Assembly: GCA_014382535.1 (NCBI GenBank)
Contig: JACNJN010000161.1
Coordinates: forward strand, 1-37,504
Source: Candidatus Desulfolinea nitratireducens
GTDB lineage: Bacteria; Chloroflexota; Anaerolineae; Anaerolineales; Villigracilaceae
Direction: 5' to 3'
Length of the DNA: 37,504 bases
In this document: positions 6,413 to 9,942 of the stretch, piece by piece
Layout of the letters: each line of letters begins with the position of its first letter
Position numbering within the stretch: position 1 is the first letter of the stretch
Made by a program: the position numbers and the translations under genes
Notes under the pieces: model-generated
Databases searched by the model: none
Told to the model about the DNA's origin: nothing
Seen by the model: only the letters and a program-made list of their open reading frames with translations

Positions 6413-8884
6413 GTGCCACCAAAAGGAATGCTCAAATACTGGTTCTTTTTCTTTCTGCTAGCCTCACTTGAAGGAGGCTATGCATTATTTACGCTGCTGC
6501 GCATTCCCGCAGATCCAACAAACAGCTTCTTCCTGGGACTTTCTATCTCGCGCTTATCTATGGCAGGAATACTGTTGAGTATGGTATTCATCTCTGCGTG
6601 GCTGGGAGTGCTTGCTTGGCGAAAGCCACTTTGGAGGGAAACATACCTCGACCCAGGGAAATATCCAAAAACCTTTGACACGCTAACCTGTCTATCTGCC
6701 TTGAGTGCGCTGCTAGTATCCGTTGGCCTCTTTTTATTGCGCTTCTATGATCCCACACGCTTCCTGCCTCTTTTCGAGCGAGCCAAGCCCCTTGCCATTA
6801 CGATCATTGTTTTAGGTTTACAACTTTCCATTTGGTTGCTTTTTCTTCGCAATGGTTTTGACTCCAAGTTTTTCAAAGACAGAAAAATAAATCGAGCGGC
6901 CGGGATTTTCTTTGGTATTTTACTTGCTATTTTTGCGTTTATTGCCATTACTCGCATTGGGCTAACCCCAGATGCAGCATATTGGGCTGAGCCAGGGGTG
7001 GCTTTGCAGGGTTGGCAGTTTGGCTTGGCTTTACTCGGTGGTTTTTTCACATCACTTCTTAGCTTGAAGATTGATCCCCACCTTAAAAAAACCGATTTAA
7101 TCTTTGCCATATTGCTTTGGGGTATTGCTGTCGTGATCTGGCAAAGTGTCCCGATGGATGTTCTTAAGAACAGCTTTTACGGTCCTTTTGCTTATCCGCT
7201 TGGACAATCGCTTCCTTATTCTGATGCTGGTTTTTATGATTATCTTGCACAGGGACTTTTGCTAGGGAAGGGATTTATTACGAGTATTCCTCCGCGCCCT
7301 CTTTATATCGTTTTACTGGCTGGGTTGCATGCTCTCTTTGGGCTTGACTATAGTCTAATCTTTCTGGGACAGACCCTTATTCTTGCCCTCTTTCCGGTAG
7401 TCCTTTATTTTCTTGGGAATACGCTCCATAGTCGTTCTGCAGGCGTGACCGTGGCTCTCTTTACTATTTTTCGGGAATGGACGAATCTCCTTATTTCCTC
7501 ACAGACGCGAGTTTCCAACTCAAAAATGACTTTGACGGATATCCCGACCGCTTTTGTCCTTAGCTTGGCCGCATTATTCGTCATTCGCTGGCTTCAGAAA
7601 CGGAATCGTCAGCCCCTTTCCCCTCTTATTGCAGGTGGCATATTTGGGCTTCTACTTATCCTGCGCACCCAGTCAATGCTAATTTTGCCCCTGATTGTTC
7701 TCCTGGCTCTGCTCATCTTTTGGCCGCGATGGAAAGAGTGGTTAGTAGTAAGTCTTATCTTCCTTTTTGGTGTGACTCTCAGTGTGTCTCCGTGGCTGAC
7801 GCGCAACACCCACATCACCGGGAAGATCACATTCGATGATCCCAGCCAGCTTGGGCTACTTTCGAGCCAATACAAATTTACCGATAACCTGAACTCGACT
7901 GATTTTGATCTTGCGAACGAAAGTCTTTCCAATTCAATACTTAGCTTTGCTCTCCAAAACCCTGGTTTTGTTGCGGAATTTATTTCCACTCATTTTCTTG
8001 CCACCGAAATAAATGGATTACTGGCCCTGCCTCTCATTGAGCCATTTTACGGATTTCAGGAACCCATTAATATTTATTGGACCAACTGGGATGGGCATCT
8101 TAGTTTTTACAACCAACTCCTGCTAATTTTTTATCTTGCCATAATCGCATTAGGTTTGGGTGCAGTTTGGTGTCGCTTCACCTGGATCGGTTTGACACCT
8201 CTTATATTCAATCTCGGCTATGCCCTCTCAAATGGAGTCGCCCGTTTTTCTGGTTGGCGATATGATTTTCCGGTTGATTGGGTTGCCTACTTTTATTTCG
8301 GGGTTGGTTTTGTTGAACTTCTCACTCTCCTGGCCTCCAGCTTTAGTGAAGACAGTGAAAAAATCTATTCTTCCCCACCTGAAAAAGTCCCTCACCAAAA
8401 TATAAAGGGCTCCAGCCTCATTCTATTCTCTTTCCTCTTTCTCTTGATCGGCTCTTCTCCACTGATATTTGAAAATGCCATTCCCCCCCATTTTGAATCT
8501 TTCTCTGAAGAAGCTCTTCTATCTAAAATTTCCCCTTTTGCTGCTGAAATCGAAGTTTTTGCCGCACAGGACGGTGCCAGAATTCTTATAGGACGTCTAC
8601 TATATCCGCGATTTTATCGGGACGGCGCAGGGTTGGCATCCGCACATCCTTGGCCTGCCTACGCTATCCGAGATTTTTCCAGAATGGGCTTTGTTCTTAT
8701 CGACCAACAGAATACGCAGGTTGTTTTCCCCATTAAAAAGATGCCTGTCGAATTTCCCAACGCCGAAGATGTGATTGTTTTAGGGTGTCAGAAAGATGAT
8801 TATTTGGAAGCGCGACTCATCTACTTGATGGATAATCAGGAGATTCTTCTAAACGAAAAGATTTTTGTTACCTGTACAGAATGA
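6413..8884 (+). CDS. Large GT-C-type membrane glycosyltransferase-like protein
   Basis: An 823-residue polytopic protein. About 16 hydrophobic segments are visible up to about residue 690, followed by an extracytoplasmic C-terminal domain. Between early membrane segments lies an acidic loop, LPYSDAGFYDYLAQG (about 262-276), resembling the catalytic Asp loop of dolichyl/undecaprenyl-phosphate-sugar-dependent GT-C enzymes (GT39/GT83-like). A conserved-looking SKMTLTDIP segment follows at about 371. Donor and acceptor are unknown. The GTG at 6413 or the ATG at 6428 could start it; neither has a good ribosome site. The stop overlaps the mutY start (ATGA), so translation is probably coupled, although a functional link to DNA repair is not implied. 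Confidence 0.7.
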   Translation: MPPKGMLKYWFFFFLLASLEGGYALFTLLRIPADPTNSFFLGLSISRLSMAGILLSMVFISAWLGVLAWRKPLWRETYLDPGKYPKTFDTLTCLSALSALLVSVGLFLLRFYDPTRFLPLFERAKPLAITIIVLGLQLSIWLLFLRNGFDSKFFKDRKINRAAGIFFGILLAIFAFIAITRIGLTPDAAYWAEPGVALQGWQFGLALLGGFFTSLLSLKIDPHLKKTDLIFAILLWGIAVVIWQSVPMDVLKNSFYGPFAYPLGQSLPYSDAGFYDYLAQGLLLGKGFITSIPPRPLYIVLLAGLHALFGLDYSLIFLGQTLILALFPVVLYFLGNTLHSRSAGVTVALFTIFREWTNLLISSQTRVSNSKMTLTDIPTAFVLSLAALFVIRWLQKRNRQPLSPLIAGGIFGLLLILRTQSMLILPLIVLLALLIFWPRWKEWLVVSLIFLFGVTLSVSPWLTRNTHITGKITFDDPSQLGLLSSQYKFTDNLNSTDFDLANESLSNSILSFALQNPGFVAEFISTHFLATEINGLLALPLIEPFYGFQEPINIYWTNWDGHLSFYNQLLLIFYLAIIALGLGAVWCRFTWIGLTPLIFNLGYALSNGVARFSGWRYDFPVDWVAYFYFGVGFVELLTLLASSFSEDSEKIYSSPPEKVPHQNIKGSSLILFSFLFLLIGSSPLIFENAIPPHFESFSEEALLSKISPFAAEIEVFAAQDGARILIGRLLYPRFYRDGAGLASAHPWPAYAIRDFSRMGFVLIDQQNTQVVFPIKKMPVEFPNAEDVIVLGCQKDDYLEARLIYLMDNQEILLNEKIFVTCTE

Positions 8885-9942
8885 TCGAAATCGCCCCGCG
8901 ACTTTTAACCTGGTACCGCCAAAATAAACGGTTTCTCCCCTGGCGAGACCACCCCGATCCCTATGCCGTTTGGGTTTCGGAGATCATGCTCCAGCAAACC
9001 CGCGTGGATACGGTCATCCCCTATTTTGAGCGTTGGTTCGCCAAATTCCCCACGATCAAAGCTCTGGCGGATGCTGAGGAGCAGGAAATTCTCAATCTTT
9101 GGGAGGGGCTTGGTTATTACAGCCGGGCTCGCAATTTGCATAAGGCTGCTAAAATCCTTGTTGAAAGTTCCCTCTCCCTGGGGGAGAGGGCGGAGGGTGA
9201 GGGCAAACTCCCTGAAGATTCCGCAGCCCTGCAGAAGTTGCCTGGCATCGGGCGTTATACTGCTGCCGCAATTTCCTCGATGGCTTTTGGGCAGGATGCC
9301 GCCGCACTGGACGGAAATATACGGCGTGTTTATGCGCGCATATTCAATATTGCAGATGTTTTGGGCACCACAAATGCAGAGAAAATCTTTTGGGACCTGG
9401 CAGAGGAAAATATTCCCTCAGGGGAGGCTGGCGACTATAATCAGGCCCTGATGGATTTGGGCGCGCTGATTTGCACACCGCGCAATCCCTCTTGCGGTGA
9501 ATGCCCTGTAAAAGAATTATGTCAGGCCAAAAAACTTGGCATACAGGATGAGCGTCCAGTGCGGAAAGCAAAAAAGACAGTACCGCATTATCTCCATGCG
9601 GCCGCGCTGATCGTCGAAGAGGGGAAGGTTTTGTTGGCACAGCGCCCGGAGAAAGGGTTGTTAGGCGGGATGTGGGAATTCCCAAACGGACGCGTAAATG
9701 GAGATCCTGCTGGGGAGTTGGTATCTGTAATTGATAAGGGATACCAGCTCAAGGTCCAGATTGTAGATCCGCTTGGAGAAGTGGATCATGCCTACACTCA
9801 TTTCAAGATAAAAGAAGTAGCTTTTCGCTGTACGCTGATCCGATCATCCCACAAAGAGAATTTACGCTGGGTGGCATTGAATAAATTGGACGATTATCCG
9901 ATGGGCAAGGTGGATCGGATGATCGCTGGAAAATTACAATGA
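8881..9942 (+). CDS. mutY: A/G-specific adenine DNA glycosylase MutY
   Basis: MutY removes adenine mispaired with 8-oxoguanine. The 353-residue protein has the expected order: catalytic Glu in SEIMLQQT (E34), helix-hairpin-helix LPGIGRYTAAA (about 115-125), catalytic Asp in LDGNIRRV (D144), a 4Fe-4S cluster with C198-x6-C205-x2-C208-x5-C214, and a C-terminal NUDIX-like domain (from about 237) that reads 8-oxoG. All key residues are present. An in-frame palindromic repeat (9169-9203, residues about 96-108) enlarges the loop just before the HhH motif; other MutY proteins have a much shorter stretch here. The start overlaps the previous stop (ATGA), and the amidohydrolase follows after 10 nt. 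Confidence 0.95.
   Translation: MIEIAPRLLTWYRQNKRFLPWRDHPDPYAVWVSEIMLQQTRVDTVIPYFERWFAKFPTIKALADAEEQEILNLWEGLGYYSRARNLHKAAKILVESSLSLGERAEGEGKLPEDSAALQKLPGIGRYTAAAISSMAFGQDAAALDGNIRRVYARIFNIADVLGTTNAEKIFWDLAEENIPSGEAGDYNQALMDLGALICTPRNPSCGECPVKELCQAKKLGIQDERPVRKAKKTVPHYLHAAALIVEEGKVLLAQRPEKGLLGGMWEFPNGRVNGDPAGELVSVIDKGYQLKVQIVDPLGEVDHAYTHFKIKEVAFRCTLIRSSHKENLRWVALNKLDDYPMGKVDRMIAGKLQ
9169..9203. repeat. Palindromic repeat inserted in frame in mutY
   Basis: CCCTCTCCC (9170-9178), a loop of three, and GGGAGAGGG (9182-9190) form a perfect 9-bp stem, followed by GGGTGAGGG (9195-9203). This composition recalls a short dispersed repeat seen in many bacterial genomes (from memory). It adds Ser-Leu-Ser-Leu-Gly-Glu-Arg-type residues to MutY without breaking the frame. 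Confidence 0.75.

Follow-up and report, generated by a model that had tools for sequence, protein, structure and literature searches.

The mutY gene of Candidatus Desulfolinea nitratireducens carries a 38-bp palindromic unit at positions 9166–9203 of the window, the whole 37,504-nucleotide stretch of DNA that was analysed. The unit consists of a tag, a perfect 9-bp hairpin and a GGGTGAGGG tail, lies in frame, and is an insertion. We think it probable (at about 0.65) that the insert arose recently as an in-frame copy of a short non-autonomous unit that also forms ends of elements encoding a DUF559 nuclease of the PD-(D/E)XK type. Full elements of this kind form part of the reading frame of conserved genes in several phyla, and the mutY insert is best read as a detached end of such an element, without the gene. 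From the sequence patterns described below, we infer that the DUF559 nuclease drives movement. The element family behind the mutY insert looks undescribed within the literature covered: among the open-licence papers listed, none was seen to tie DUF559 to palindromes or to in-frame insertion.

A palindromic insertion in mutY

The earlier note had described a hairpin repeat in frame in mutY; the arms, loop and tail are all present and the open reading frame continues through them. The features are as follows.

8881–9942, + strand: mutY, A/G-specific adenine glycosylase, complete, 353 aa; helix-hairpin-helix (HhH), LDGN aspartate and four Fe-S cysteines present
9166–9203, + strand: palindromic unit (tag, hairpin, spacer, tail); boundaries judged from 27 oriented copies
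9166–9192, + strand: net insertion, nine codons relative to 29 aligned relatives (MutY alignment)
9166–9169, + strand: AGTT tag preceding the hairpin; the consensus before the stem is A-G-T-C/T (AGTC/AGTT), with per-position agreement of 19, 13, 19 and 25 of 27 tailed copies
9170–9178, + strand: left hairpin arm CCCTCTCCC
9182–9190, + strand: right hairpin arm GGGAGAGGG
9191–9194, + strand: spacer CGGA, shared by 7 of the genome's 27 oriented copies, the mutY copy included
9195–9203, + strand: tail GGGTGAGGG, the motif that also closes full DUF559 elements on the outside, for example in valS
9238–9264, + strand: helix-hairpin-helix motif LPGIGRYTA, 3′ of the insert

The two arms are perfectly paired around a 3-nt loop, and the peptide encoded at the palindrome is SSLSLGERAEGEGK. 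With up to three mismatches allowed, the hairpin pattern matches a single site in the window, that in mutY (chance mean 0.01). A scan for GC-rich hairpins found five in the window, of which mutY's alone falls within an ORF of 150 aa or more. The RNA fold of the mutY element is no better than that of shuffled sequences (z −0.9; 43 of 200 shuffles as good), so the evidence for the element is its recurrence and the empty site in relatives rather than fold stability.

In an alignment of 30 MutY sequences (codons for 11 of them), this genome shows a net gain of nine codons, residues 96–104, that is found in none of the 29 relatives, five of which belong to the same genus and are 64–72% identical. 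Of 201 genomes searched within the order, 170 gave a MutY match. Among the matches listed, 149 other MutY sequences (counted by hand) span 201–210 nt over the matched residues, shorter by nine codons, and the same nine-residue gap is present in two solved MutY chains that were aligned with this one. The alignment, a check proposed in the earlier note, supports insertion, and neither of the outcomes that the note had named as refuting its reading was observed: the relatives lack the residues, and the repeat recurs in the genome. The note's figure of about ten added residues requires adjustment: the unit with its tag is 38 bp long and touches 13 codons, with a net gain of nine. Similarly, the insert does lie upstream of the HhH motif, with 11 residues between the two instead of directly before it. 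The enzyme is otherwise complete, as had been claimed, with the HhH, the LDGN aspartate and all four Fe-S cysteines in MutY; we take the aspartate to be catalytic and the cysteines to serve the Fe-S cluster. A target-site duplication at mutY could not be fixed because the MutY of the nearest relative is 72–74% identical, and no DUF559 gene lies inside any mutY examined.

The AlphaFold model of MutY (mean pLDDT 92.9) has a helix at residues 81–99 and coil at 100–113, and its weakest block is 101–110 (mean 67). The insert therefore corresponds to a helix end and low-confidence coil, a modelled placement that is as expected of a tolerated insert. The added residues show no sign of any role, and the term ‘exapted’ used in the earlier note is not warranted.

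Copies in other conserved genes

The pattern CCCTCTCCCN{0,12}GGGAGAGGG has 41 copies in this Anaerolineales genome and its reversed control none; the same 41 copies are recovered when the pattern is shortened by two bases at either end (loop 2–14). The repeat is also present in all eight other genomes of the genus examined, with 1 to 22 copies each and none for the control. The tail GGGTGAGGG lies within 16 nt of the hairpin in 27 of the 41 copies. Other copies are longer palindromes, some of them ∼95 bp long and bearing CCCTCACCC at the opposite end. A comparison with MITEs, gene-less elements that have terminal inverted repeats and a target duplication, showed outer CCCTCAYC and GGGTGAGGG in some copies.

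A genome-wide count of in-frame insertions, also proposed earlier, places 14 of the 41 copies in frame in 13 conserved genes: mutY, pyrF, metH, valS (on two contigs), cofE, the gene for the CCA-adding enzyme, maf, and those for a DEAD/MZB helicase, a membrane glycosyltransferase-like protein, DUF1786, moeA, priA and HMG-CoA reductase. Host names that lack a Pfam assignment, such as that of the glycosyltransferase-like gene, are our own reading. On a rough view, the remaining 27 copies seem to be intergenic or near gene starts. Comparison with orthologues in genomes G007, G003 or G008 revealed alleles that are clearly shorter, by 29 residues for HMG-CoA reductase, 21 for the glycosyltransferase-like gene, 20 for maf and 12 for DUF1786; priA is 21 residues shorter in G003, and G007 has the insert too. 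Length differences are small for the helicase (8), valS (4), moeA (3) and pyrF (1 to 5). Clean insertions are not evident in cofE and the CCA-adding enzyme, since the loops of their relatives are equal or longer, with none shorter among those seen; some of these loops carry palindrome-like peptides of their own.

Three of the host genes have further peculiarities. In priA (L042, G000:C178) there is a second in-frame palindrome-like peptide, NPSPTRGGGRGGG, beyond the CCCTCTCCC element, and in the DEAD/MZB helicase (L033, G000:C108) the CCCTCTCCC element is followed downstream by a palindrome-like peptide, PPPQAGEDRGGG, and an HNH domain (PF01844). The valS genes on short contigs L023 and L025 (G000:C71 and C80) have the same palindrome insert and differ in sequence; they are either strain variants or a duplicated gene in the assembly.

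The repeat as an end unit of DUF559 elements

The repeat is an end unit of a family of nuclease-bearing elements, which the earlier note had missed. This genome has three DUF559 (PF04480) genes (L095, L096 and L097), all with palindromes on both sides, and 2 of the 41 repeat copies adjoin them. At L096 and L097 the mutY-type unit is found on one side only, with other palindromes opposite, and L095 has a different palindrome subfamily on both sides. Loci with the mutY-type unit on both sides, tails outward, are the valS elements of G030, L219 and L230, and also L114.

Matches to PF04480 were found in 33 of the 40 genomes searched, this genome included, and we examined the best 64 of the 88 matches listed for the relatives and this genome. 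In a loose hairpin test on these best 64, a hairpin was detected upstream at 47 of 64 loci and downstream at 32 of 61; 54 of 61 had one on at least one side, 22 on both sides, 22 upstream alone and 7 on neither. As background for this test, 16% of 1007 distant windows were positive, as were 8% of the shuffled flanks, and the flanks of 30 mutY genes, used as a control, gave 8 on the left, 4 on the right and 1 on both. A strict test on the first 32 loci, 29 of them testable, found hairpins on both sides of 10 and on either side of 20, against a both-sides background of 2.8% of 363 windows and 0 of 30 mutY genes. In a larger set (the best 80 of 382 matches), 55 of 78 testable loci are bracketed by strict GC-rich hairpins, made up of 32 of 51 embedded and 23 of 27 other copies, as compared with 4.2% of 2709 distant windows; the loose test gave 33 of 78 versus 16.7%. 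An AGT tag occurs within 7 nt of 49 of the 242 hairpins beside DUF559 genes, where 18 are expected, mostly directly 5′ of the stem. A number of loci, including L101, L107, L128 and L131, have loose hairpins upstream only, often with A/T in the stem, and these are perhaps regulatory rather than element ends.

The DUF559 profile matches the solved structures 3hrl (E 1.9e-35) and 3r3p, a ‘mobile intron protein’ (E 1.1e-5), the latter of which we take to be the homing endonuclease I-Bth0305I (EDxHD/Vsr-like). Residues D43, E54, D56 and H60 are invariant among 20 rows compared, and DUF559 thus has both the homology and the conserved acidic and histidine core that characterize the Vsr-like/EDxHD family.

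Nucleases embedded in host genes

We counted a DUF559 domain as embedded when the open frame around it continues without a stop for 80 codons or more in both directions. This is the case for 12 of the best 64 of 88 listed matches from the relatives and this genome. A GTDB scan with a profile built from nine embedded copies identified 382 relatives, of which the best 80 were kept, some on contigs shared with the 64. Among these best 80 of 382, 51 loci are embedded, a fraction that overstates embedding because the loci were found with an embedded-copy profile, and 58 reach this length in one direction or both. Palindrome-encoded peptides occur at the junctions as a rule, if not always at both (e.g. 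L218 and L200).

Pfam scans of 19 frames named a host family in 17, the exceptions being L218 and L272. The hosts are methionine synthase at two places (L152; and L227, from Stagnimonas aquatica), valyl-tRNA synthetase, HMG-CoA reductase, HsdM, HsdS, HsdR-like proteins, Eco57I- and MmeI-type methylases, a type ISP enzyme, a radical SAM protein, UvrA, a UvrD-type helicase, and members of the PIG-L and APH families; one helicase host named by Pfam is read as HrpA. The same scan (E 1e-5) found DUF559 and no intein domain in the 19 host proteins. Several of the records bear no metagenome-bin mark (Nitrosomonas nitrosa Nm90, Nitrosomonas sp. Nm166 and Mariprofundus erugo), which makes binning artefacts less likely. 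In the 30 codons before the domain, 8 of 51 embedded copies have an in-frame ATG, or 26 of 51 if ATG, GTG and TTG are all counted, and 13 of 51 have a start codon within the first 12 codons of the domain. The scarcity of upstream starts suggests that many of the embedded nucleases are probably made only as part of the host protein.

Restriction-modification hosts recur in this collection (L253, L254, L256, L263, L264, L235, L207, L234, L270 and L211), with L254, L256 and L263 assigned by their resemblance to L253. A site in metH before the B12-binding module has DUF559 elements in many Anaerolineales bins and in one bin named Chloroflexus. Some metH members (L195–L226) have long strings of junction palindrome peptides, for example L204 and L226. 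Named relatives place this genome in the Anaerolineales, L194 being the contig of the same-genus genome G007. A structure prediction for HMG-CoA reductase with its embedded DUF559 (three rows) had a mean pLDDT of 32.9 and was unusable.

Allelic states, selection and phylogeny

In valS, the full element is present in G030, L219, L224 and L230, and this genome has the right-hand unit alone at the same place and in the same frame. The element in G030, L219 and L230 ends in outer CCCTCACCC and GGGTGAGGG, with one hairpin at each end. At the HMG-CoA reductase site, the element is full in G003 and G007, reduced to palindromes in this genome and absent from G008; the Pfam match to HMG-CoA reductase breaks after profile position 211 in G007 and resumes at 216 in this genome. 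The palindromes at this site in this genome belong to another subfamily than those of G003 and G007, and we therefore rejected the idea that they are a simple remnant of the G003/G007 element. The metH site is filled by a full element in this genome and G007 and is empty in G008 and G003.

The embedded nuclease is apparently under purifying selection, judging from 15 codon-aligned pairs with pN of 0.05–0.24 and pS of 0.58–0.92. The dN/dS ratio is 0.03–0.06 in the six pairs for which it could be computed, with rough dS values of 1.1 to 2.6, and the other nine pairs are dS-saturated. In a tree of 130 DUF559 domains, which is built on few columns and whose bootstrap values are not settled, host labels cluster strongly, with 17 changes versus 55.3 when shuffled. 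Single groups are formed by the copies in valS (weakly supported), in hsdM, in HMG-CoA reductase and at the second hrpA site. The HMG-CoA reductase and UvrD-like host copies, together with a metH copy, nest inside the metH group; copies at the second hrpA site branch from within those at the first, and the hsdM copies unite Nitrosomonas, Methylophilaceae and Mariprofundus.

Proposed origin and movement of the elements

The simplest account of the same-site presence and absence, the terminal inverted repeats and the conserved nuclease is a homing- or transposition-like cycle driven by DUF559. The nuclease would cut target DNA, with either the palindromic ends or the site as its recognition target, and the element would be copied in by host repair, as in homing. 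The short units may be moved in trans, or may be left behind once the nuclease part is lost. Copies would persist in genes by being open in several frames and lying in exposed loops, where the host protein would tolerate them without splicing.

The pairing of nuclease and palindrome could also be a nested insertion, with the palindromes primary and moved by other means and the DUF559 genes acting as homing nucleases that land on them. The palindromes do far outnumber the DUF559 genes in this genome (41 copies and three genes), the two sides of L096 and of L097 carry different palindromes, subfamilies differ at the HMG-CoA reductase site, and stand-alone DUF559 genes exist (71 of 130 rows are so labelled, contig-end cases included). 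However, the two ends of any one locus resemble each other: across 29 testable loci, the mean best score between left and right flanks is 45.7 versus 21.4 between loci, and none of 10,000 permutations is as high. In addition, the valS outer motifs CCCTCACCC and GGGTGAGGG stand at both outer boundaries as terminal inverted repeats. We consider nested insertion unlikely on this evidence.

Movement of the unit by a RAYT-type (Y1 tyrosine) transposase, as for classical REPs, is less probable still. This genome has nine matches to PF01797, and the hairpin-plus-tag layout resembles that of REPs as described in PMC3733652, but none of the nine Y1 loci is flanked by the unit, and we rejected RAYT genes as its partner. 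One of the nine has the unit nearby, ∼1 kb away (L092), and a lone half-motif lies at the edge of L091. Strict hairpins are present on either side of one of the nine loci and on both sides of none; the looser test gives four of nine and one of nine (L086), respectively. The GTAG tag is absent. The last alternative, that DUF559 proteins are Vsr-like repair enzymes such as VsrA of Caulobacter, which belongs to DUF559 and has been proposed to serve in mismatch repair as a nuclease (PMC12907096), and that the adjacent palindromes are transcription or recombination features with no mobile meaning, is very hard to reconcile with in-frame embedding in many unrelated genes, with junction palindrome peptides as a rule, and with presence and absence among relatives.

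Returning to a cycle driven by the DUF559 nuclease, we consider a broader proposal about as likely as not: that DUF559 nucleases with palindromic, translatable ends are a class of bacterial mobile element in their own right, an in-frame insert that does not splice and homes through housekeeping and restriction-modification genes across phyla, whose nuclease is often a domain of the host protein and which seeds coding palindromes such as that in mutY.

Comparison with known systems

Taken as given, the insert in mutY adds one more case to a known phenomenon, the coding palindrome. The Rickettsia palindromic elements (RPEs) are palindromic repeats found in frame in unrelated protein genes and tolerated by the host protein (PMC10969869). 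The parallel with Rickettsia drawn in the earlier note holds in kind, in that a genome-wide palindrome lies in frame in an intact gene, and the 14 copies in 13 genes found here likewise occupy conserved genes of unrelated function. The host phylum is a different one, and the unit here is ∼38 bp, compared with ∼150 bp for RPEs. The unit here is also tied to a nuclease gene, whereas the passages on RPEs in PMC10969869 mention none.

REPs of the GTAG and CGTC superfamilies consist of a short hairpin, an unpaired 4-nt tag and a tail, and occur in many copies, some of them intragenic, including in uvrA and tRNA synthetase genes (PMC3733652). The unit described here likewise has a short hairpin, a 4-nt tag and a tail, and occurs in many copies, some of them in genes. 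Its tag consensus over 27 oriented copies is AGTC/AGTT, unlike the GTAG that defines the GTAG superfamily. CGTC REPs have a CGTC (or TGTC/CCTC) tag, A-T pairs at stem positions 1–2, a loop of 4–5 and a CCA tail (PMC3733652). The stem length of 9 fits that superfamily and the tag is one base from CGTC, but the tag is AGTY, the stem CCCTCTCCC lacks the A-T pairs typical of CGTC REPs, the loop is 3 in mutY and the tail is GGGTGAGGG. As in RAYT–REP systems, the palindromes flank the gene of a single-domain DNA-processing enzyme and outnumber it; here, however, the enzyme is PD-(D/E)XK/Vsr-like rather than a tyrosine HuH transposase, and the elements embed in frame in genes.

The elements share with homing endonuclease genes and inteins a nuclease that is related by profile (3r3p) and a presence or absence at the same site in conserved genes. 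They differ in that the frame runs through the element with no intron needed, in having palindromic ends and palindrome-only derivatives, and, with respect to inteins, in that the Pfam scan of the 19 host proteins (E 1e-5) revealed no self-splicing Hint domain.

The whalefall-1 RNA (RF01762) resembles the unit in having a CUCUCC/GGAGAG hairpin followed by AGGGUGAGG. A full-length whalefall-1 match covers 9168–9204 of the window (E 0.0004 and 0.0002), with a score of 23.9 bits at the mutY unit, below the gathering score of 37. The Rfam search gave sub-threshold matches only, with whalefall-1 at the mutY unit and near L123; matches to miRNA families on GC-rich flanks were likewise sub-threshold and were set aside as chance. 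Whalefall-1 is classed as a noncoding RNA known only from environmental sequence (PMC2864571), and this ‘RNA’ may itself be a palindromic repeat of the mutY-unit kind.

Implications

The palindrome-bracketed nuclease gene inside valS, metH and HMG-CoA reductase is a concrete candidate for the mover of the unit, and the sites that are empty or palindrome-only in relatives provide ready pairs of empty and filled alleles. DUF559 elements may also supply the missing mobiliser of REP- and RPE-type coding palindromes elsewhere. The findings suggest a function for DUF559, as well as a route by which proteins could gain loops or whole nuclease domains without splicing.
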